Assembly (NCBI GenBank): GCA_026712905.1
Contig: JAPOPM010000126.1
Span: 1 to 47,496, forward strand
Length of the DNA: 47,496 nucleotides
Reading direction: 5' to 3'
DNA from: Deltaproteobacteria bacterium
Lineage (GTDB): Bacteria > Desulfobacterota > Binatia > UBA9968 > JAJDTQ01
The notes under the pieces are model-generated. The model ran no database searches and was not told where the DNA came from. It saw only the letters and a list, made by a program, of their open reading frames with translations. Both the position numbers and the translations under genes were made by a program. Positions 6,755 to 20,621 of this stretch are shown piece by piece. The stretch's first letter is position 1, and every line of letters starts with the position of its first letter.

Positions 6755-7342
6755 ATGAAGACGGTACTTGGTATATTGTGCCTCGGTATTGCAGTCGTGG
6801 TGTTTCCGTTGAGCGCCTCGGCCGGACCAACGCCGAGTTACGTGACGGAGTGTCGCTACGTCGACGTTCCCCTGACCGGCTGCGGCTGGACCGTGCGACT
6901 CCCGAGATGCTGGACGAAGTGCGTTCTGACGGGCTTCCGCGACCCTTCGATCGGACCGATTCCCTGCGGCAGTCTGGGTTTGGGCTTTCTCGGGCTAGGT
7001 CTACCGGCAGGGGTAGTACCGGATTGGGGACCCTCCGCGAAGGAGGTGGACCTGACAGAGGTCACCCTACGAACAGGGGCAGCAGCGAACGTGATCAAGG
7101 AGTTGTCACGCGAGTTCAGCGTCGCGAGCCATTCACTCAAGCGGCCCTACATCCCATCCAGCGGCCCGGCAGCTGGTATCGACTTCTCGCCGCGTGCCGG
7201 TTTACAAACGCTGTGTGCTTTGGGTGCGAGTGACTTCGTTTGTACTCGGTGCCAACTTCAGCCAAATGACCCGGCCTGTCAAAGACTCATCGGAAAGTGG
7301 GCTGTTCCGTGGTCTTCACTTGGCTTCGGAGCCACGCGGTGA
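6755..7342 (+). CDS. Hypothetical exported cysteine-containing protein
   Basis: The 195-residue product has a clean signal peptide (MKTVLGILCLGIAVVVFPLS then ASAGP). After cleavage it carries about ten cysteines, including the pairs CGW...CWTKC and CTRCQLQPNDPAC near the C-terminus. Disulfides or metal binding are possible. AGGAG lies six to seven bases before the ATG. I recognise no family. It follows the TctC-like gene by 9 bases and its stop overlaps the proposed GTG of the next gene, so the three form one transcription unit. Confidence 0.6.
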   Translation: MKTVLGILCLGIAVVVFPLSASAGPTPSYVTECRYVDVPLTGCGWTVRLPRCWTKCVLTGFRDPSIGPIPCGSLGLGFLGLGLPAGVVPDWGPSAKEVDLTEVTLRTGAAANVIKELSREFSVASHSLKRPYIPSSGPAAGIDFSPRAGLQTLCALGASDFVCTRCQLQPNDPACQRLIGKWAVPWSSLGFGATR

Positions 7343-7875
7343 ACCCCGACGCGTTCATTGAGCGCTGCGCAAACACCGTGCCTGCCCGGCGCATGACGGT
7401 GCCGGCGATCCTGTTTCCGCGTTGTGCCGAGAGTCTTGGAGAGCTGTCGAAAGACAATCCAGAAGGAAGCGAAACGGTAAGAAGGAACACGGGCACAGCA
7501 ATCATTGTCGTAGTGACGTTTGCCTTACTGGCTCTCGGCTCTCCCACTCAGGCGTCCCACAGACCTGCTTCAATGGAGCCGTCCTTTCCAAACTCGCCAG
7601 CCTACTCATCAGTTTGTCACCATTCGCCAGCGTATCTCGCGTGTGTTCTCAAGCAGGAGCTTGTCCGCTCACTCGATTCTCAAAGTCCACACACGCGGGG
7701 GGAATGGGGAGTCAAACGGGGAAAGCGGCCAGAGAACAAGCGGCCAGAGGAGTTGTGGGACGCTAACGGGAATGTGATTGGCTGGCTGTGTCGGAATCGC
7801 TTTGGCGAGCTCGAGCCCTTCTTCATTGAGGAGGACCCCGAACAGTGGCCGGAACCAGGGTTTGGCCGGCCCTGA
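7339..7875 (+). CDS. Chimeric hypothetical protein: duplicated operon head plus exported domain
   Basis: The first ~30 residues (DAFIERCANTVPARRMTVPA then ILF) copy the start of the protein encoded at 7879-8193 (DALIERLAQAVHARRMTVPA then ILF). Similarity then stops, and a segment with a signal-peptide-like stretch (TGTAIIVVVTFALLALGSPT) and an unrelated C-terminal half follows, with paired cysteines and an acidic tail. I suggest that a duplicated gene head was fused upstream of a small exported protein whose own start may lie near 7470. GTG 7339 overlaps the previous stop; GTG 7297 is an alternative. Whether the fusion is translated as one protein is unknown. Confidence 0.45.
   Translation: MNPDAFIERCANTVPARRMTVPAILFPRCAESLGELSKDNPEGSETVRRNTGTAIIVVVTFALLALGSPTQASHRPASMEPSFPNSPAYSSVCHHSPAYLACVLKQELVRSLDSQSPHTRGEWGVKRGKRPENKRPEELWDANGNVIGWLCRNRFGELEPFFIEEDPEQWPEPGFGRP
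7383..7417 (+). repeat. 35-bp direct repeat, copy 1
   Basis: Identical to 7977-8011, 594 bases away, within a longer stretch of diverged similarity beginning about 7350. It marks a partial duplication of the start of the gene at 7879. Confidence 0.9.
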
Positions 7876-7878
7876 CGG

Positions 7879-8193
7879 ATGACAACGCATCGGACCGTGA
7901 ACACCATCGAAGCACATCACCATGAACGAACCGGCGGGACCGACGCCCTCATCGAGCGCCTCGCCCAGGCGGTGCATGCCCGGCGCATGACGGTGCCGGC
8001 GATCCTGTTTCTCGAAGCCCACAAGCCGCTGACGTCGCTGTTCCACACGGCGGCGGTGATGAGCCTGCCGATGATGCTGCCGCTGTTCGGCGCGAAGGCG
8101 CGGGAGCTGCCGGCGTTTCTGCAGTCGCGGGACAACGTGGAGCGGCTCGTCCGGCGCATCGAGGAACTGGCCGGGGAAGGCGGTGGTGGCTGA
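7879..8193 (+). CDS. Small protein, first gene of the GlmL/DUF6754 operon
   Basis: The 104-residue product has no family that I recognise. Residues about 22-45 form a helical head (ALIERLAQAVHARRMTVPAI). A hydrophobic stretch, AAVMSLPMMLPLFG, follows, and then a charged C-terminal helix with SRDNVERLVRRIEELAGEGG. It could be a peripheral or single-pass subunit. The stop overlaps the next ATG by one base, tying it to the DUF6754 gene. The in-frame GTG at 7897 is an equally plausible start. No strong promoter is visible in the 3 bases between this and the upstream gene, so the operon promoter may lie within the duplicated region. Confidence 0.65.
   Translation: MTTHRTVNTIEAHHHERTGGTDALIERLAQAVHARRMTVPAILFLEAHKPLTSLFHTAAVMSLPMMLPLFGAKARELPAFLQSRDNVERLVRRIEELAGEGGGG
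7977..8011 (+). repeat. 35-bp direct repeat, copy 2
   Basis: Identical to 7383-7417. This copy lies in what looks like the intact gene, so the upstream one is probably the derived copy. Confidence 0.9.
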
Positions 8194-9002
8194 TGGGCGG
8201 GTTCGAGAACGCCACTCCGGGGGTGCTGGTGGTGATGGCCCTGATGATCGGGCCGGTGCTCTACTACATCCGCGTGGCGCGGCGCCGGAAGGACCTCTAC
8301 GTGCGCCGGCTGGCCGGAGTGGACGCCATCGACGAGGCCGCCGGGCGCTCGGCGGAGCTGGGGCGTCCGCTGTCCTTCTCCACCGGCCTCACCAACGTCA
8401 GCCCGGTCCTGTACGCCTGCCTCGGCGTGCTCTACTACGTGGCGCGCAAGGCGGCGCAGTACCGGTTGCGCCTGCTGGTGCCGCAGAACACCCCGGAGGT
8501 CATGGCCATCGCAGAGGACGTGCTGCGGGAAGCCTACCGCGCCGAGGGCCGCTCGGCCCAGTTCGACCCGCGCAACGTCCGTTTCCTTTCAGAGGAACAG
8601 TTCGCCTTCGCCGCGGGCTACATCGGCATGGTGCAGCGGGAGCGCGTGGCCGGCGCCTTTCTCTTCGGCAACTTCGCGGCCGAATCGCTGATCCTGGCGG
8701 AGGCGGGGCAGCAGGTGGGGGCCATGCAGGTGGGCGCGTCGGTGAGCCCCGAGCAGGTGGCGTTCTTCATCGCGGCGTGCGACTACACCCTCATCGGCGA
8801 GGAGCTGTTCGCCGCGTCGGCCTATCTCACCCGTGAACCGGTCCAGCTCGGCAGCCTCTACGGACAGGACCGCGCCAAGCTCGTCCTGTTGCTGATGATC
8901 CTGGTCGGAGTGGGCATCGCCACCCTGAACTCGCTGTGGCCCGAACTGGGCCTCACCAACCTGGGCACGCTCATGCACCTCGGCTGGGGGGTCGGGTCGT
9001 GA
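8193..9002 (+). CDS. DUF6754-type membrane protein
   Basis: The 269-residue product has an N-terminal membrane helix (VLVVMALMIGPVLYYIRVAR), a cytosolic-looking middle and C-terminal hydrophobic helices (LVLLLMILVGVGIATL). Segments such as LSFSTGLTNVSPVLYACLGV, FIAACDYTLIGEELFAASAY and SLYGQDRAK match the DUF6754 family as I remember it. That family is often seen beside GlmL-like ATPases. Function is unknown. It overlaps the neighbouring genes at both ends. The family call is from memory of conserved motifs; the membrane topology is by eye. Confidence 0.7.
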   Translation: MGGFENATPGVLVVMALMIGPVLYYIRVARRRKDLYVRRLAGVDAIDEAAGRSAELGRPLSFSTGLTNVSPVLYACLGVLYYVARKAAQYRLRLLVPQNTPEVMAIAEDVLREAYRAEGRSAQFDPRNVRFLSEEQFAFAAGYIGMVQRERVAGAFLFGNFAAESLILAEAGQQVGAMQVGASVSPEQVAFFIAACDYTLIGEELFAASAYLTREPVQLGSLYGQDRAKLVLLLMILVGVGIATLNSLWPELGLTNLGTLMHLGWGVGS

Positions 9003-10048
9003 ACGTGCGGGCGCGCCTGATCAAACTCGTCACGTTCCTGGGCGGCATCTACTTCTTCCTGGAGTTCGTGCTGCCGGGCACCGTGTTCGGCGTCAAGGTC
9101 GACACCTACCACGACCAGATCTCCAACGGCTTCATCACCGTGGGGGCCATGGCCGCGGGGCTGGGGCTCATCAACCTGCTCATGCAGCACGGCTCGCGGA
9201 TCGTCTTCCTGCGCCGGGAGTGGCCCTACAGCCTGGCGCTGCTCTCCGGTCTGGCCATCATGATCGCCGTGACGGTGCAGGACTGGCGCGGCACCAGCCG
9301 GGTGGCGCAGGAGGTTGCGGGCATTTCCCGGCTGGCGGACTTCGCGGGACGCATCCGGTCGGACCACGAGGGCGCCACCGAAGGCGTGCTGCCCGCGGCC
9401 GCGCGCAACCGCAGCCTGCGGGAAGCGGTGGACCGGCTGCTGGCGCGCATCGAAGACGAGGTCGGCGCCGTCGACCTCGAGCGTTTCGAGCAAGGGAGCA
9501 TCGACCACGGGCTCGCGCGAGGCTACCTGGCGGAGGCGGGAAATCGCGCCGCCGCCGCGCGCGCCGCGGCCGGCAGCCTCACGGTGGCCGACGGCGCGCC
9601 CCCGGACCTTGCCGCCAACACGGCGGTGGTGCGCGCCCTGCGCGGCCTCGCCGACAACTGGCGCAGCCTGCGCAACCTCGAGTACGAGTACGCCACGCCC
9701 AAGCACGTCTACCGGCTGCTCTTCGAAGGGCTGTTCGTAGCCCTGGGTTCTGCCATGTTCTCGCTGCTGGGATTCTACATCGCGGCCGCAGCCTACCGTG
9801 CCTTCCGGGTGCGCTCCGCCGAATCGTCGCTCATGATGATCGCGGCGGTGCTGGTGATGCTCGGGCAGATCCCCTTCGGCGTGTGGATCTGGTCCGGGCT
9901 GCCGGACCTGCGGCTGTGGCTCCTGGAGATACCCAACTCGGCCGCGTTCCGCGCCATCACCTTCGGCGCCGGGGTGGCGGGACTGGTGATGGCGTTCCGC
10001 ATGTGGCTCTCCATCGAATCGGAGTCCTTCGACCGGGAGGAACGCTGA
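8999..10048 (+). CDS. Multi-pass membrane protein of the GlmL/DUF6754 operon
   Basis: Starting at GTG 8999, overlapping the previous TGA, the product has 349 residues. Hydrophobic segments lie near residues 8-30, 45-62 and 75-93. A soluble, alanine- and arginine-rich helical domain spans about 95-240, and three or four more membrane segments (LFVALGSAMFSLLGFYIAAA, MMIAAVLVMLGQIPFGVWIW, ITFGAGVAGLVMAFRMWL) follow. The layout suggests two membrane bundles joined by an extramembrane domain. No known family is recognised. Confidence 0.7.
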   Translation: MNVRARLIKLVTFLGGIYFFLEFVLPGTVFGVKVDTYHDQISNGFITVGAMAAGLGLINLLMQHGSRIVFLRREWPYSLALLSGLAIMIAVTVQDWRGTSRVAQEVAGISRLADFAGRIRSDHEGATEGVLPAAARNRSLREAVDRLLARIEDEVGAVDLERFEQGSIDHGLARGYLAEAGNRAAAARAAAGSLTVADGAPPDLAANTAVVRALRGLADNWRSLRNLEYEYATPKHVYRLLFEGLFVALGSAMFSLLGFYIAAAAYRAFRVRSAESSLMMIAAVLVMLGQIPFGVWIWSGLPDLRLWLLEIPNSAAFRAITFGAGVAGLVMAFRMWLSIESESFDREER

Positions 10049-10049
10049 C

Positions 10050-10919
10050 GTGAACCTCGCCCGGCTCGACCGCCGCTGGATCTACCTGATGGTCTTCCTG
10101 GCCCTGAGCGCGCCCATCGTGACGCAGTACACGGTGCAGCCGGCGCGCATGAGCGACGCGGAGCGGTTCTTCGAGGTGGTGGAAGGCATCGAGGCGGCGC
10201 CTGCCCGCTACGCCTTCGTGGCCATGGACTTCGGCCCCAGCACCAAGGGCGAGAACCAGCCGCAGGCGCGCGCGGTGGTGGAGCATCTGATGCGCCGGCG
10301 CATCCCGGTGATCCTGTTCTCGCTCTACTATCTGGCCGAGCCGTTCCTCAAGTCCATCCCCGCGGAGGTGGCGAGCCAGCTCGAGCGCGAAAACCCCGGC
10401 GAGACCTGGGAGTACGGCCGCGACTGGATCAACCTCGGCTACCGGCCCGGAGCCGGCATCCTGATCCAGGCGATCCCCAAGTCGGAGAATCTGGCCGAGC
10501 TGTTCGAGAAGGACGCCCGCGGCAACCGCATCTCCGAGCTGCCCGCGTTCAGCGAACTGCGCACGCTGCGCCAGATCGCCTTTCTCGCCGAATTCACCGG
10601 CCTGGTCGGCGCCTTCGACAACTACGTGCAGTATTTCACCAGCAAGGACTACACGCCGGCCTTCGGCCACGGCTGCACCTCCATCACCATCCCGGAGGCG
10701 TTCATCTACCTGGACTCGGGGCAGATCCAGGGCCTGCTGGGCGGACTGGCGGGGGCCGCATGGTACTCCGAGCTGCTGCGCCGGCGCTACCCCGAGCGCC
10801 CGGTGGACGAGTCGCTGATGCTCAACACCGGGCTGGGGGTGGCCCAGCTCGTGGTCATCGCCTTCATCATCCTGGGAAATCTGGCGGGCCTGCTCGGGCG
10901 CCGAAAGGAAGAGTCCTGA
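10050..10919 (+). CDS. Membrane-anchored protein of the GlmL/DUF6754 operon
   Basis: From GTG 10050 the product is 289 residues. It has one N-terminal membrane helix (WIYLMVFLALSAPIVTQYTV) and one C-terminal helix (LGVAQLVVIAFIILGNLAGL). Between them is a mixed alpha/beta domain with YAFVAMDFGPSTKGENQPQA, RRRIPVILFSLYYLAEP and GYRPGAGILIQAIP. The strand-helix alternation resembles a Rossmann-like fold, possibly extracytoplasmic. It lies one base downstream of the previous gene. I do not recognise the family and infer no activity. Confidence 0.7.
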   Translation: MNLARLDRRWIYLMVFLALSAPIVTQYTVQPARMSDAERFFEVVEGIEAAPARYAFVAMDFGPSTKGENQPQARAVVEHLMRRRIPVILFSLYYLAEPFLKSIPAEVASQLERENPGETWEYGRDWINLGYRPGAGILIQAIPKSENLAELFEKDARGNRISELPAFSELRTLRQIAFLAEFTGLVGAFDNYVQYFTSKDYTPAFGHGCTSITIPEAFIYLDSGQIQGLLGGLAGAAWYSELLRRRYPERPVDESLMLNTGLGVAQLVVIAFIILGNLAGLLGRRKEES

Positions 10920-10922
10920 CCC

Positions 10923-11633
10923 ATGACGAGCCTGGACACCTGGCACGTGGCCACGGTGCTCGTGGGAGGCATCGGCACGCTCGCCATCTTCAGCTTCCTG
11001 ATCAAGGAGAACCCCTTCTTCCGAGTCTTCGAGCACCTGTTCATCGGCATTGCCGCGGGTTTCGGCCTGGTGCTGGGCATCAAGAACTTCCTCTGGCCCA
11101 AGGTGCTGGTGCCGATGCTGGGCCTGGACATCGTCACCTACCCCGACGGCAGCCTGTCCCACGAGTACGACCCGCGTCTGCTGCTCTACCTCCTGCCCAT
11201 GGTGTTCGGGCTGTTCTACTACTTCCTGTACTCGCGGCGGTACGCGTGGCTCGCCAAGCTGGTCATCGGCTTCTCCCTGGGAATGAGCGGCGGGCTGGCC
11301 TTCAAGGGCTTCTTCAACCAGATCATGCCCCAGGTGGTGAGCAGCTTCCGCCCCCTGGTGGTGTTCGAGGAGGGCGCCCTGGCGGTGGGCGCCAGCCTGG
11401 AGAACGCGTTCTTCATCTTTACGCTGCTGGCGGTCATGTACTACTTCTTCTTCTCGTTCCGGCACGGCAACCGCGCCGCCGACGGCGTTTCCCTCTCGGG
11501 CCGCTGGCTTCTCATGGTGTGTTTCGGCGCGTTCTTCGGTTCCACGGTCATGGCACGCACCGCGCTGCTGGTGGAGCGGGTGCAGTTCCTGCTCATCGAC
11601 TGGTACGGCGCGCTGGCGGGGCTGATCGCATGA
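10923..11633 (+). CDS. Polytopic membrane protein of the GlmL/DUF6754 operon
   Basis: The 236-residue product has about six predicted membrane helices, for example TVLVGGIGTLAIFSFLI, LFIGIAAGFGLVLGI, LLLYLLPMVFGLFYYFLYS and LMVCFGAFFGSTVMA. It has few charged loops. No transporter signature is visible. The stop overlaps the ATG of the GlmL-like ATPase (ATGA at 11630-11633), so translational coupling is likely and the two proteins may be made in fixed ratio. Confidence 0.7.
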   Translation: MTSLDTWHVATVLVGGIGTLAIFSFLIKENPFFRVFEHLFIGIAAGFGLVLGIKNFLWPKVLVPMLGLDIVTYPDGSLSHEYDPRLLLYLLPMVFGLFYYFLYSRRYAWLAKLVIGFSLGMSGGLAFKGFFNQIMPQVVSSFRPLVVFEEGALAVGASLENAFFIFTLLAVMYYFFFSFRHGNRAADGVSLSGRWLLMVCFGAFFGSTVMARTALLVERVQFLLIDWYGALAGLIA

Positions 11634-13468
11634 AGACGGATCCCGCCGCCCTGCGCACCGTGCTGGTCACGGACTGCGGCTCCACCACCACCAAGGCGCT
11701 GCTGTTCGAGAAGACCGGGGAAGGCTGGCGCCAGACGCACCGCGGCGAGGCCCCCACCACCGTGGAGCAGCCGGTGGCGGACGTGACCGCCGGCGCGCTC
11801 AACGCCTTCGCGGAGGTGGAGGAGATCAGCGGACGGAAGATCCTGACGCCGGACGCCGGGCAAGACGGTGGGGCGCCGTTCCTCGAATCGGGCGAAGACG
11901 GCGCCCACGGCATCGACCTCTACCTCTCCACCAGCTCCGCCGGCGGCGGCTTGCAGATGACCGTGGCCGGGGTGGTGCGCCAGATGAGCGCGGAGTCCGC
12001 GGAACGGGCGGCCCTGAGCGCCGGCGCCATCGTCATGGACGCCATCTCCGCGGACGACGGGCGCGAGGACCACGAGCGCATCCAGCGGCTGCGGCAACTG
12101 CGGCCCGACATCGTCCTGCTCACCGGCGGCGTGGACGGCGGCTCCCAGGAGCACGTGGTGGAGATGGCGGAGACCCTGGTGGCGGCGTCGCCGCGGCCCC
12201 GGTTCGGCGACACGCTGCGACTGCCGGTGATCTACGCGGGCAACACCGAAGCCGAGGACGATGTCCGGCGCATCCTGGAGAAGACCGCCCAGATGGCGGT
12301 GGTGGACAACGTGCGCCCCGTCCTCGACGCCGAGAACCTCGGCCCGGCGCGCGAGGCCATCCACGAGTTCTTCCTCACCCACGTCATGAGCCACTCACCG
12401 GGCTACGACAAGCTGCTGCGCTGGACGCCGGTGCCGGTGATGCCCACGCCCGCGGCCGTTGGGGACATGGTGCGGGAGCACGCCGCGAGCACCGGACAGG
12501 CGGTGCTGTGCGCGGACATCGGCGGCGCCACCACCGACGTGTTCAGCGTCTTCGAGAACCGCGACGGCGAGCCGGCGTTCAACCGCACGGTGAGCGCCAA
12601 CCTGGGCATGAGCTATTCCGTGGCCAACGTGCTCATCGAGGCCGGCGTCGAAGCCCTCCGCCGTTGGCTCCCCTACGAAATCCAGCCCTCCGAGGTCCGC
12701 GACCGGTTGCGCAACAAGATGATCCGGCCCACCTCGATCCCCCAGACCCTGGAGGACCTGTGGCTGGAGCAGGCGGTGTGCCGCGAGGCCCTGCGCCTGG
12801 CGCTGGCGCACCATCGCTCCCTCGCGGTGGGGCTCAGCGGCGTGCAGCAGCAGCGCGGCATCGCCGACATCTTCTCGCAGACCGCGAGCCGCGCGGGCCT
12901 GGTGGACATGATGCGCCTGGACCTGGTGATCGGCTCCGGCGGCGTCCTGAGCCACGCCCCGGACCGCATGAGCGCCGCGCTCATGATCGTGGAGGGATTC
13001 GAGCTGCTGGGCTTCACGCAGATCGCCGTGGACTCCATCTTCATGATGCCCCACCTGGGCGTGTTCGCCTCGATCCACCCCGAAGCCGCGCGCGAGATCT
13101 TCCTGCGCGACTGCCTCGTGAGCGTGGCTCATGCGGTGGTGCCGGTGTTCCCACGCAAGCGGCCGGCAGGCTCGGTGCTGGCGGAAGTTTTCGTCAACGG
13201 CGAACCCGCCGAACCCTTCAAGGCGGGCGCGCTGGACCGCATCGACCTGGAACCCGGCGCCGCGACCCGGCTCGTCGTCCGGCCCGCGCGCGGAACCATC
13301 GACGTGGGCGCCGGCGCGGGCATGCCCCTGGAACGGGAATTCACCGCGGGCCTGTGCGGCGTCATCCTCGACGGCCGCAACCGTCCTCTTCAAACCGCTC
13401 CGTACGTTGACGAGCAGGCGGCGGAGCGCCGGGCCGTCATGGCCGGGCTGGGGCTTATGGAGTCATGA
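11630..13468 (+). CDS. GlmL/MutL-like ASKHA-superfamily ATPase
   Basis: The 612-residue protein has the nucleotide-binding motifs of ASKHA ATPases. Phosphate loop 1 is VTDCGSTTTKALLFEK (residues about 13-28), phosphate loop 2 is ADIGGATTDVFSVF (about 297-310), and an adenosine-site GSGGVLSHAP lies near residue 438. This fits glutamate mutase component L (GlmL/MutL). In characterised systems the clostridial MutL family is encoded beside B12-dependent mutases and is thought to assist or reactivate them. Here no mutase subunit, B12-binding motif or reductase is near; instead it is coupled to four membrane-protein genes. A role as a membrane-complex energy or scaffold subunit, like PilM or GspL, is a speculative alternative. 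Confidence 0.8.
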   Translation: MKTDPAALRTVLVTDCGSTTTKALLFEKTGEGWRQTHRGEAPTTVEQPVADVTAGALNAFAEVEEISGRKILTPDAGQDGGAPFLESGEDGAHGIDLYLSTSSAGGGLQMTVAGVVRQMSAESAERAALSAGAIVMDAISADDGREDHERIQRLRQLRPDIVLLTGGVDGGSQEHVVEMAETLVAASPRPRFGDTLRLPVIYAGNTEAEDDVRRILEKTAQMAVVDNVRPVLDAENLGPAREAIHEFFLTHVMSHSPGYDKLLRWTPVPVMPTPAAVGDMVREHAASTGQAVLCADIGGATTDVFSVFENRDGEPAFNRTVSANLGMSYSVANVLIEAGVEALRRWLPYEIQPSEVRDRLRNKMIRPTSIPQTLEDLWLEQAVCREALRLALAHHRSLAVGLSGVQQQRGIADIFSQTASRAGLVDMMRLDLVIGSGGVLSHAPDRMSAALMIVEGFELLGFTQIAVDSIFMMPHLGVFASIHPEAAREIFLRDCLVSVAHAVVPVFPRKRPAGSVLAEVFVNGEPAEPFKAGALDRIDLEPGAATRLVVRPARGTIDVGAGAGMPLEREFTAGLCGVILDGRNRPLQTAPYVDEQAAERRAVMAGLGLMES

Positions 13469-14622
13469 GCCAGGCGTTGACGCCCACGCTCCAGGTGGCG
13501 GCCGAAGCCGTGGTGCGGAAGACCCGGGAGCTTCCCGTGCCGGGCCGCATCCTGTGCGCCCCCGGCGACGTCGTGGCCGCGGACACCGTCGTGGCGCGCG
13601 CCGAACTGCCCGGCGACCTCTCCATCCTGCGGATCCCCGAAGCTCTCGGTATCGAGCCCGCGGAGGCCCTCAAGAGCCTCTCGGTGAACGAGGGCGACGT
13701 CATCACGGAGGGAGACCTCCTGTGCGAGCACGTGGGCCTCTTCGGCCTGTTTCGCTCGCGCTTCCACGCCCCCGTGGGCGGCACCGTCGAGTTCATCGCG
13801 CCGCGCACCGGGCACGTGGGAGTGCGGCTCGCGCCCCACGCCATCGACCTGAATGCCTACGTGGCCGGTACCGTGGCGGCCGTCGAACCGGACAAATCCG
13901 TCACCATCGAGAGCCAGGGCGCGTTCATCCAGGGGATTTTCGGTGTCGGCGGCGAACGCTTCGGTCCCATCCGCATGCTCGGCGGCGGCCCCAAGACCCT
14001 GCTGGGGCCCGCGAAGATCCCCGACGACGTGGCCGGCCAGGTGCTGGTGGGGGGCACGCGCCCGACGCTCGAAGCCCTGCAACGCGCCGCCGGCAACGGC
14101 GCGGCGGGCCTGGTGGTGGGCTCCATCGACGACTACGCGCTCACCGGCTACCTCGGCTACGATCTCGGCATGGCCGTCACCGGACACGAGGACGTGTCCA
14201 TGACCGTCATCGTCACCGAGGGCTTCGGCTGGCTGCCCGTGGCCGAGCGCACCCACGACCTGCTGCGGCGCCTCGAAGGCCGCGCCGCCTCCATCAACGG
14301 CGCCACCCAGGTGCGCGCCGGCGCGGTGCGGCCGGAAATCATCGTGGCCCGGATGGAAGAACCGGCCGGCTCCGGCGGCGGGAAGGATGCGGGAACCGGC
14401 GCCCTCCCCTCCGCCATGCCGGGGGACCCCGCGACCGGGCTGCGCGTCGGCGCCTTCGTGCGCATCATCCGGGAGCCCCACTTCGGCGTCGCCGCGGAGA
14501 TCATCTCGCTGCCCGCCGAACCGCAACCCATCGAGACCGGCGCCCGCACCCGGGTACTGGACGCCCGGCTGCCCGACGGCGAGATCGTCACCGTGCCCCG
14601 GGCCAACGTGGAGTTGCTGTGA
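13465..14622 (+). CDS. Soluble protein with biotinyl/lipoyl-like and KOW-like segments
   Basis: This 385-residue product overlaps the GlmL-like gene by 4 bases. Residues about 25-140 form short beta hairpins (LPVPGRILCAPGDVVAADTV and FHAPVGGTVEFIAPRTGHVG) resembling a barrel-sandwich hybrid, but there is no modified-lysine motif. A Rossmann-like middle follows (GAAGLVVGSIDDYALTGYLG, VIVTEGFGWLPVA, SINGATQVRAGAVRPEIIV). The C-terminus (VGAFVRIIREPHFGVAAEII ... DGEIVTVPRANVELL) resembles a KOW/SH3-like domain. I know this combination only as an uncharacterised GlmL neighbour. Function is unknown. Confidence 0.65.
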   Translation: MSQALTPTLQVAAEAVVRKTRELPVPGRILCAPGDVVAADTVVARAELPGDLSILRIPEALGIEPAEALKSLSVNEGDVITEGDLLCEHVGLFGLFRSRFHAPVGGTVEFIAPRTGHVGVRLAPHAIDLNAYVAGTVAAVEPDKSVTIESQGAFIQGIFGVGGERFGPIRMLGGGPKTLLGPAKIPDDVAGQVLVGGTRPTLEALQRAAGNGAAGLVVGSIDDYALTGYLGYDLGMAVTGHEDVSMTVIVTEGFGWLPVAERTHDLLRRLEGRAASINGATQVRAGAVRPEIIVARMEEPAGSGGGKDAGTGALPSAMPGDPATGLRVGAFVRIIREPHFGVAAEIISLPAEPQPIETGARTRVLDARLPDGEIVTVPRANVELL

Positions 14623-14803: not shown

Positions 14804-16651
14804 ATGCAATCGAGTCGGTTGTTGGGGGCGGTTTTATGGGCGCTGGCGCTCGCCGCCGCGCCGGGTGTAGCGGAGGCGAGCGAGGATGCGCGCCCGAGCC
14901 ACGGCATCGCCATGCACGGCGACCTGAAGTATCCGCCGGACTTCAAGCACTTCGACTACGTGAATCCCGCCGCGCCCAAGGGCGGCTCCGTCCGTCTTCA
15001 GGCCATCGGCACCTACGACAGCTTCAATCCATTCATCGTCAAGGGCAGCCCGGCCGCGGGCATCGGGCGCATCTACGAGACCCTGATGACCGGTTCCGCG
15101 GACGAGCCCTTCAGCGAATACGGCCTGCTGGCGGAGAGCATCACCGTCCCCCAGGACCGTTCCTGGGTGGAGTTCCGGATGCGGCCGGAGGCGCGCTGGC
15201 ATGACGGCAAGCCGGTGACCGTGGACGACGTTGTCTGGACCTTCGAGACTTTGATCACCAAGGCGGTGCCCTTCTACCGCGGTTACTACGGCGACGTGAA
15301 GCAGGTGGAGAAGCGCGACGCGCGCACCGTGCGCTTCACGTTCAAGAGCGGCACCAACCGCGAACTGCCGCTGATCCTGGGACAACTGATCGTGCTGCCG
15401 AAGCACTACTGGGCGGAGCGGGACTTCACCAAGACCACCCTGGAGGCGCCCCTGGGAAGCGGCCCCTACAAGGTGGGCGCCTTCGAGCCGGGCCGGGACG
15501 TGGCGTACGAGCGGGTGGAAGATTATTGGGGGCGGGACCTGCCGGTGAACATCGGCCGGGACAACTTCGACCGCATCCGTTACGACTACTACCGCGACGG
15601 CACGGTGTCGGTGGAGGCCTTCAAGGCCGGCGAGTACGACTTCCGCGACGAAAACAGCTCCAAGAACTGGGCCACGGCCTATGACTTCCCCGCGCTGAAG
15701 CAGGGGCTGGTGAAGAAGGAGGAGATCCCCCACGACCGTTCCACCGGTATGCAGGCCTTCGTGTTCAACACCCGCCGGGCGATTTTCCAGGACCGCAAGG
15801 TGCGCCGGGCGCTGGCCAACGCCTTCGACTTCGAGTGGTCCAACCAGTCCCTCTTCTACGGGCAGTACACCCGCTCCCGGAGCTACTTCGACAACTCGGA
15901 ACTGGCGGCCACCGGGCTGCCGGGCCCGGAGGAGCTGGCGGTGCTCGAGCCCTTCCGCGGGCGGGTCCCGGAGGAGGTGTTCACCCAGTCCTACAAGCCG
16001 CCGGCCACCGACGGTTCCGGGCGCATCCGTGCCAACCTCGGTCGGGCCGCGAAGCTCTTGCGCGAGGCCGGCTGGAGCTTCGACAAGGCCACGGGCAAGC
16101 TTACGCACAAGGCCAGCGGCCGGACCATGGAGTTCGAGGTGCTGCTGGTCAGCCCCTTGTTCGAGCGCATCGTGCTGCCTTTCGCGAAGAACCTGGAGCG
16201 GCTCGGCGTCGTCGCCACGGTGCGCACGGTGGACAGCGCGCAGTACCGCCGCCGGCTCGATGACTTCGACTTCGACGTGGTCATCGGCACCTGGGGGCAG
16301 TCGCTTTCGCCCGGCAACGAGCAGCGGAACTACTGGGGATCGGATTTCGCCGACCGCTCCGGCAGCCGGAACCTGATCGGCATCAAGGACCCGGTGGTGG
16401 ACGCGCTGGTGGAGGGCGTCATCAACGCCGCCGACCGCAAGAGCCTGGTGGCGCACGTGCGCGCCCTGGACCGGGTACTCCAGTGGGGCCATTGGGTGAT
16501 CCCGCAGTGGCACATCCCCTACGACCGGCTGGTGTACTGGGACCGCTTCGGCCGCCCCGAGACCACCCCCACCCAGGGAGTGCAGTTCGACGCCTGGTGG
16601 GTCGACCCCCGGAAGGTGGCCGAGCTGGAAGCGAAGCGCTCCGGGAGCTGA
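14804..16651 (+). CDS. yejA: YejA-like peptide ABC transporter substrate-binding protein
   Basis: The 615-residue protein has a signal peptide ending GVAEASED and a family 5 solute-binding fold. Motifs typical of YejA include GGSVRLQAIGTYDSFNPFIV near residue 63, RPEARWHDGKPVTVDDVVWT, FKAGEYDFRDENSSKNWATA and the terminal NYWGSDFADRSGSRNLIGIK. It would bind oligopeptides or peptide-like compounds in the periplasm and deliver them to YejB/YejE. AAGGAGG at 14793-14799 is a near-perfect ribosome site. The 180-bp gap from the previous operon suggests an independent promoter. The operon order yejA-yejB-yejEF is conserved in proteobacteria. Confidence 0.9.
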   Translation: MQSSRLLGAVLWALALAAAPGVAEASEDARPSHGIAMHGDLKYPPDFKHFDYVNPAAPKGGSVRLQAIGTYDSFNPFIVKGSPAAGIGRIYETLMTGSADEPFSEYGLLAESITVPQDRSWVEFRMRPEARWHDGKPVTVDDVVWTFETLITKAVPFYRGYYGDVKQVEKRDARTVRFTFKSGTNRELPLILGQLIVLPKHYWAERDFTKTTLEAPLGSGPYKVGAFEPGRDVAYERVEDYWGRDLPVNIGRDNFDRIRYDYYRDGTVSVEAFKAGEYDFRDENSSKNWATAYDFPALKQGLVKKEEIPHDRSTGMQAFVFNTRRAIFQDRKVRRALANAFDFEWSNQSLFYGQYTRSRSYFDNSELAATGLPGPEELAVLEPFRGRVPEEVFTQSYKPPATDGSGRIRANLGRAAKLLREAGWSFDKATGKLTHKASGRTMEFEVLLVSPLFERIVLPFAKNLERLGVVATVRTVDSAQYRRRLDDFDFDVVIGTWGQSLSPGNEQRNYWGSDFADRSGSRNLIGIKDPVVDALVEGVINAADRKSLVAHVRALDRVLQWGHWVIPQWHIPYDRLVYWDRFGRPETTPTQGVQFDAWWVDPRKVAELEAKRSGS

Positions 16652-16682
16652 CGATCACTGGCTGGTACCGAAGCCCCGAACC

Positions 16683-16710
16683 GTCATTCCCGCGAAAGCG
16701 GGAATCCAGG
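16683..16710. repeat. Dispersed palindromic repeat, copy 1
   Basis: ATTCCCGC (16686-16693), GAAA loop, GCGGGAAT (16698-16705), flanked by GTC and CCAGG. Related copies lie at 26571-26598 and 36057-36084. Here it sits between yejA and yejB and could attenuate transcription or stabilise the yejA mRNA end. Confidence 0.85.
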
Positions 16711-16753
16711 CGCCGTGGCGGGGGGAACACGCAACAGGACACCAAGTAAGCGC

Positions 16754-17863
16754 ATGTTCGCCTACATCATCCGCCGGCTGCTGCTGATCATCCCGACGCT
16801 GATCGGGATCATGGTGCTGAACTTCGTGATCATCCACTCGGCGCCCGGCGGGCCGGTGGAACAGATCCTGGCGAAGCTCCAGCAGACGGACGTGTCCGCC
16901 ACCGAACGGTTCAGCGGCGGCGGCGACCAGCGGGAGGTGGGACCGTCGGCCCAGCAGTCAAGGGACAGCGGCACCGCCGGGCGCTACCGCGGCGCCCAGG
17001 GCATCGACCCCGAGTTCATCAAGGAAATCGAGCGCCAGTTCGGCTTCGACAAGCCGCCCCACGTGCGCTTCTTCCTGATGATGGGGAACTTCCTGCGCTT
17101 CGACTTCGGCGACAGCTTCTTCCGCGACCGCTCCGTGGTGCAACTGGTGATGGACAAGCTGCCCGTGTCCATCTCCCTGGGGCTCTGGACCACGCTGCTG
17201 GTGTACCTGGTTTCCATCCCACTGGGCGTGGCCAAGGCCGTGCGCGACGGCACGCGCTTCGACGTGTGGACCTCCGGTGCCGTGATCGTCGGCAACGCGG
17301 TGCCGGGGTTCCTTTTTGCCATCCTGCTCATCGTGCTGTTCGCCGGCGGGCGCTACTTCGATTGGTTCCCGCTGCGCGGCCTGGTGTCCGACAACTGGAG
17401 CGAACTGGGTTTCTGGCAGCGCATCGTCGACTACCTCTGGCACATCACCCTGCCGGTGATGTCCATGGTCATCGGCGGCTTCGCCGGCCTCACGATGCTC
17501 ACCAAGAACTCGTTCCTGGACCAGATCAACCAGCAATACGTCATGACGGCGCGCGCCAAGGGGTTGAGCGAGCGGCGGGTGCTCTACCGGCACGTGTTCC
17601 GCAACGCCATGCTCATCGTCATCGCCGGTTTTCCCGGCGCCTTCGTCGGCATCCTGTTCACCGGCGCGCTCCTCACCGAGGTGATCTTCTCGCTGGACGG
17701 CGTGGGCCTGCTGGGGTTCGAGGCGGCCATCAACCGCGACTACCCGGTGATGTTCGGCACGCTCTATTTCTTCACGCTGCTGGGTCTGGTGATGAAGCTG
17801 GTGGAGGACCTCACCTACGTGGTGGTGGACCCGCGCATCGACTTCGAGAGCCGGGAAACCTGA
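16754..17863 (+). CDS. yejB: YejB-like ABC transporter permease
   Basis: The 369-residue protein is an inner-membrane permease of the DppB/OppB type with an N-terminal helix ([20 protein letters not shown]). The YejB-specific loop containing [20 protein letters not shown] follows, and then the binding-protein-dependent transport domain with the EAA-like loop [20 protein letters not shown]. This loop docks on the ATPase. The start was placed at ATG 16754, just before the first membrane helix. It works with the YejE part of the next protein to form the channel. Confidence 0.9.
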
Positions 17864-17876
17864 GGCCGAGCGCCAC

Positions 17877-20621
<2,745 letters not shown>

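Follow-up and report, generated by a model that had tools for sequence, protein, structure and literature searches.

The window, by which we mean the whole stretch of 47,496 nucleotides that was analysed, contains seven open reading frames on the same (+) strand that fill positions 7879-14622. The first, o1 (7879..8193), encodes a small protein of 104 aa, recognised as an operon member from the ORF list and from the conservation of its family. It is followed by o2 (8193..9002), encoding a DUF6754 membrane protein of 269 aa (PF20539, E 4.5e-84), o3 (8999..10048), encoding a multi-pass membrane protein of 349 aa from a GTG start, and o4 (10050..10919), also with a GTG start, whose product of 289 aa carries a Rossmann-like domain between two transmembrane (TM) segments. 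Then come o5 (10923..11633), encoding another multi-pass membrane protein (236 aa), o6 (11630..13468), encoding a MutL-family ASKHA ATPase of 612 aa (PF13941, E 8e-122), and o7 (13465..14622), encoding a soluble protein of 385 aa. Adjacent frames overlap by 1, 4, 4 and 4 bases or are separated by gaps of 1 and 3 bases, in agreement with the close packing described in the first-pass annotation. For o1, o3, o4, o5 and o7 no Pfam family scored over its cut-off, and no NCBIfam name was obtained either.

The source genome (4.8 Mb, 98.9% complete) contains one MutL and one DUF6754 gene. Within the sampled order, o6 orthologues of 83-95% identity were present in 9/9 genomes of the window's genus; genomes of other genera carried at most a distant mutase-type MutL. 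Eight genus relatives were compared. In all seven relatives with an uncut locus the genes o1-o7 are intact and their order is unchanged; the eighth contig begins inside o5. Values of dN/dS within the genus lie mostly between 0.1 and 0.3, the short o1 ranging from 0.15 to 0.67. Since all seven frames are intact, retain their order in 7/7 relatives and show mostly such low ratios, they are real genes under purifying selection and no chance reading. The compact seven-gene form, whose genus includes a genome on one contig, should lend itself readily to expression and testing as a single unit.

The o6 protein matches the PF13941 MutL profile over positions 1-449 of 450 (407.7 bits, cut-off 27 bits). 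Characterised members of this family accompany B12 mutases, and MutL-type proteins are ATP-dependent helpers of such mutases. Both nucleotide motifs, phosphate-1 DCGSTTTK (11672..11695, +) and phosphate-2 DIGGATTDV (12515..12541, +), are intact in o6 and conserved across the DUF6754-associated clade; the longer forms noted at first reading, VTDCGSTTTK and ADIGGATTDV, are both found in the sequence. Against the models built for GlmL, the accessory protein of B12-dependent glutamate (methylaspartate) mutase, o6 stays below both cut-offs (NF040745, 220.6 bits against 475; TIGR01319, 178 bits against 204), and the same holds for the model of the GlmL-related ornithine degradation protein Or-4 (NF040744, 216.5 bits against 600). 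Of the mutase-linked MutL relatives in the same phylum, two score above the GlmL cut-off of 475 (495.7 and 594.2 bits), and one reaches 580.6 bits against the Or-4 cut-off of 600.

Phylogeny and signatures separate the two groups in the same way. In the o6 tree the 11 mutase-linked relatives of the phylum form a clade with 100/100 support, and the window protein lies outside it, grouping with the MutL proteins of DUF6754 genomes (support 82/99, long branches). DUF6754-associated MutL proteins read NRTVSANLG where the mutase type reads KRTVEGDLG, and TDVFS in place of TDVHS; they also carry inserts. In addition, they possess about 118 extra C-terminal residues, corresponding to 13112..13465 (+) of the window by comparison of clade signatures and lengths, that are absent from mutase-linked proteins (median lengths 609 vs 469 aa). 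Thus o6 shares with GlmL/MutL the ASKHA fold family, the phosphate motifs and a full-length profile match, but differs in its extra C-terminal domain, its NRTVSANLG signature, its separate clade and in having membrane partners in place of a mutase. Likewise, it resembles Or-4 as a MutL-family ASKHA protein encoded in an operon, but falls outside the Or-4-like clade and has no ornithine aminomutase beside it. By these sequence criteria, o6 is clearly distinct from mutase-linked GlmL.

Could o6 nevertheless reactivate a B12-dependent mutase whose gene lies elsewhere, with its membrane neighbours as mere bystanders? Its membership of PF13941, a family whose characterised members accompany such enzymes, speaks for this, as do the MutE, B12-binding subunit or ornithine 4,5-aminomutase genes that adjoin the MutL relatives of the same phylum. 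However, the operon contains no mutase gene and no OAM genes, and MutE (PF06368) was not found in the source genome. The B12-binding (PF02310) matches over cut-off in this genome are one frame of 1237 aa, whose length suggests MetH, and two frames of radical-SAM type, of which Pfam confirms one. None of the genus relatives has MutE beside o6, and among the 43 DUF6754 genomes a clear MutE occurs in one only; in these genomes MutL co-occurs with DUF6754 and not with MutE. Because its scores remain below the mutase-model cut-offs, because clade and signatures are separate, and because MutE is missing and the B12-binding matches are MetH-sized or radical-SAM-type, it is very unlikely that o6 has a B12 mutase as its partner; we rejected a reactivase role on the grounds of tree, signatures and gene content, and consider this explanation largely refuted. 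The first-pass annotation had noted the absence of a mutase and asked whether the DUF6754-linked ATPases form a clade of their own without mutase neighbours; both the absence and the separate placement are upheld, and no close relative carries a mutase beside o6. One MutE gene was noticed at G302:C72:4649-5911, and the sole MutL of that genome is of the DUF6754-associated type.

To define the distribution of the system, we scanned named genomes containing DUF6754. This yielded at least 556 related loci, of which 80 were kept, from Zixibacteria, WOR-3, Poribacteria, Fermentibacteria, Eisenbacteria, Latescibacteria and other candidate phyla. In nearly all of them the order o2-o3-o4-o5 is held, often in tandem twice or three times, and in many o1-o6-o7 directly precede these four genes. 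A MutL is present in 41/43 DUF6754 genomes, elsewhere in the genome when unlinked, and nearly always as a frame of about 600 aa. Every sampled genome of the Zixibacteriota (118/118) contains DUF6754, in one to six copies, and 67/70 contain MutL, usually as a single copy. Counting strong o6 matches among 149 genomes of the phylum of G326, 35 had both genes, 3 had o6 only, 5 had DUF6754 only and 106 had neither, an association with an odds ratio of 247 and a Fisher p of 3e-25, although this p overstates independence because the species are related. Genomes with one half but without the other perhaps reflect incomplete assemblies. The coupling of an ASKHA ATPase to DUF6754 and three more membrane proteins, proposed from the window alone, is upheld, and this dedicated link extends far beyond the source genome.

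Two genomes of another phylum repeat the complete order o1-o2-o3-o4-o5-o6-o7, G505 without change and G487 with one added gene at the front. In the o6 tree the window protein forms a subclade with these two compact loci, a locus with o5-o6-o7 (L181) and one dispersed locus (SH-aLRT 93); the o5 and o7 trees pair the window with L181 at supports of 99 and 100. Owing to long branches the details are unsure. The parts are nevertheless inherited jointly across phyla. On this comparative evidence o2-o3-o4-o5 is a conserved membrane quartet, and o1 and o7 are constant partners of o6. Only one other DUF6754 quartet was seen in the sample of the window's own phylum (L033, G237:C24), in a genome without MutL. 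Its neighbours, an ABC permease and one other gene, have Zixibacteriota-like relatives, and because of them the contig may be misbinned.

Within the quartet, o2 matches DUF6754 with 282.1 bits over profile positions 13-250 of 257 (cut-off 27 bits). The protein consists of one TM segment, a Rossmann-like domain and another TM segment, and the charge pattern suggests that the domain is probably cytosolic. About 30 residues of this domain, largely polar, are invariant. As a member of the DUF6754 family, the window-type o2 differs in lacking the N-terminal FN3 domain present in most other phyla; there the FN3 domain, or in one phylum a PQQ beta-propeller, precedes DUF6754 and lies on the outer side by charge pattern. 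The same succession of TM segment, Rossmann-like domain and TM segment is found in o4, whose domain appears extracytoplasmic, again judging by charge. Homology between o2 and o4 was rejected, as profile comparison gave a probability of 2.4%. The AF2 models of both proteins (pLDDT 83.9 for o2, 92.5 for o4) had no Foldseek match at E 0.001 or better. The best fold match of o2 is Sir2 (Z 11.5, rmsd 3.6, 144 residues aligned), followed among others by transhydrogenase domain III (Z 9.3), and many unrelated Rossmann folds score Z 8-9.6; for o4 the best matches are MT0777 (Z 9.9) and the CODH epsilon subunit (Z 9.8). With no specific structural match, the predicted folds hint at a nucleotide-binding type, no more.

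The two remaining quartet members have conserved charged residues and gave no match to PDB sequences at E up to 5. By hydropathy, o3 is a multi-pass protein with conserved RaFRAR and GIER motifs, of a family found in 81 loci, and the window copy contains an additional mid-protein segment of about 140 aa. In the likewise multi-pass o5, residues E37, Q137, R212 and R219 are invariant. The window copy of the system is a fast-evolving member, in which several residues that are nearly invariant elsewhere have been lost. Domain swaps within the quartet were observed at L067:954-3632, L108:4075-6009 and L225:4181-6595; they comprise a PQQ beta-propeller in front of DUF6754, an o4 insert that resembles HEAT repeats and a long o3 insert, the latter sitting where the window o3 has its own extra segment. 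Because a Rossmann-like domain is predicted on each side of the membrane and extracellular FN3 or beta-propeller domains are present in most phyla, the quartet probably senses or handles something at the envelope.

Of the two constant partners of o6, o1 has a conserved PAIxFLExxKPL core and its gene immediately precedes MutL in most other phyla. Just upstream of o1, at 7341-7430, the window contains a broken partial copy of the 5' half of the gene; a stretch of 33 bases, gcccggcgcatgacggtgccggcgatcctgttt, matches between the two, near positions 7387 and 7979. This copy sits within an otherwise unrelated ORF and was not seen as such in genus relatives. The o7 protein has a barrel-sandwich-like N-terminus, an alpha/beta middle part and a KOW-like C-terminus. 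It had been described as carrying biotinyl/lipoyl-like and KOW-like segments; the latter finds weak support in SPT5/NusG matches of the family profile to PDB sequences, while the former corresponds to sub-threshold Pfam matches (RnfC_N, 14.7 bits; biotin-lipoyl PF00364, 12 bits against a cut-off of 22.1). The identity of o7 as a lipoyl or biotin carrier was rejected, as the match lies below cut-off and a 19-sequence alignment contains no invariant lysine. At three loci (L176, L177 and L180), MutL paralogues of 920-973 aa carry a C-terminal o7-like half (126-168 bits), and o6 and o7 therefore very probably act together. These fused genes lie at L176:3803-6724, L177:5322-8171 and L180:5269-8034, and no DUF6754 gene is nearby in the stretches read.

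We favour, at somewhat better than even confidence, a dedicated membrane system that is served by a MutL-type ATPase, probably a conformational activator driven by ATP, in which the o6-o7 unit acts on the quartet. That o6 forms a physical complex with the membrane proteins is deduced from the way the operon is built, from co-occurrence and co-inheritance of the parts, and from the MutL-o7 gene fusion. In the proposed mechanism, o6 and o7 would form a cytosolic ATPase-adaptor unit that is held at the membrane by o1 and docks on the DUF6754 domain, which is highly conserved and probably cytosolic. Binding and hydrolysis of ATP would change the shape of the quartet and thereby activate, reset or energise it, and one o6-o7 unit would serve the one to six quartets of a genome. 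By analogy, such action may resemble that of MutL/GlmL-type ASKHA proteins, which are thought to service partner enzymes. Genomes with as many as six quartets usually carry one MutL, which points to an activator or energiser shared among them more than to a fixed scaffold.

An actin-like fold encoded in one operon with membrane proteins is reminiscent of PilM, GspL or FtsA, and o6 might be a structural scaffold, a fixed subunit of every complex whose nucleotide binding sets the assembly of an envelope machine. The extracellular FN3 or PQQ-propeller domains on o2 and the HEAT-type insert in o4 of other phyla would suit such a machine. However, a Pfam search at E up to 1 gave o6 no PilM match, the neighbourhoods examined contain neither pilin nor secretin nor secretion-ATPase genes, and the usual ratio of one MutL to as many as six quartets points away from a fixed subunit, although a shared scaffold would still be compatible with it. 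We regard a scaffold as rather unlikely. PilM and GspL, which belong to the platforms for type IV pili and type II secretion, likewise couple an actin-like ATPase genetically to inner-membrane proteins, but they serve as a working analogy only, for o6 shows no sequence match to them, lacks PilN/O/P, secretin and secretion ATPase and is usually single-copy beside several quartets. The first-pass annotation had suggested an energy or scaffold subunit comparable to PilM or GspL; a shared energising or activating role fits one MutL for up to six quartets at least as well as a fixed scaffold does, and the likeness to PilM/GspL found no direct support, with neither a PilM match nor adjacent secretion genes.

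Slightly less probable still is that the quartet itself is a membrane enzyme, with a nucleotide-like ligand held in the Rossmann-like site of DUF6754 and perhaps of o4, and with o6 and o7 as its reactivase. The roughly 30 invariant residues of o2, the NAD-dependent Sir2 and transhydrogenase folds among its best matches, and the CODH epsilon subunit among those of o4 speak for such an enzyme, but the fold scores exceed the generic Rossmann background only moderately, a catalytic motif was not recognised, and the o4 domain is apparently extracytoplasmic, in a place poor in nucleotides. Both the scaffold and the enzyme partly overlap with the activator model. We consider it improbable that the system assists ABC uptake by regulating or energising an adjacent peptide-type transporter. 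Genes for a Yej-like peptide ABC transporter (YejA-YejB-YejEF-like) occupy 14804-20621 of the window, 3' of o7 on the same strand, and follow o7 in 8/8 genus relatives as well, the upstream side of the operon being variable; in many Zixibacteriota the quartet stands beside a sugar ABC transporter. Yet the two transporter families differ, and at many loci the neighbourhood contains no ABC transporter.

Returning to the ATP-driven activator, we tentatively propose, at somewhat less than even confidence, that the system represents an undescribed class of membrane machine in which a MutL-type ASKHA ATPase and its adaptor would energise or reset a four-subunit complex, core in one phylum and patchy in others. 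Its Pfam families were already catalogued, but we rate the whole as new, as none of the known systems tested has these parts, o3, o5 and o7 being compared by sequence. The open-access literature searched, mostly without subscription papers, contained nothing on DUF6754, PF20539 or PF13941, nothing on MutL with methylaspartate mutase and chaperone, and no description of such a system. With this system the MutL branch of the ASKHA superfamily gains a role unrelated to B12 mutases, and automatic labelling of DUF6754-associated MutL as a glutamate mutase accessory should stop. Because it occurs in many phyla, with DUF6754 in 118/118 sampled genomes of one of them, the system probably has an important job; being core, multi-copy and equipped with an ATPase of its own, it probably fulfils some basic function at the envelope of these bacteria.

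Further genes accompany the system at some loci. In several candidate phyla gcvPB, the gene of a glycine dehydrogenase subunit, lies directly or one gene 5' of o1-o6 (L076, L088, L104, L151, L169, L173 and others). Glycine cleavage was not adopted as a function because gcvPB is not beside the operon in the window, its genus and other phyla. An extra small membrane gene of about 140-160 aa, designated o0, is located directly 5' of o1 in many loci (for example L189:4400-4822, L088:5365-5835 and L226); neither the window nor its genus contains a match to it. In Zixibacteriota a gene for a secreted-looking protein of about 250-270 aa, which has no Pfam match, is inserted between o6 and o7 (L160:11756-12568, L175:11578-12327 and L162:8242-9063).
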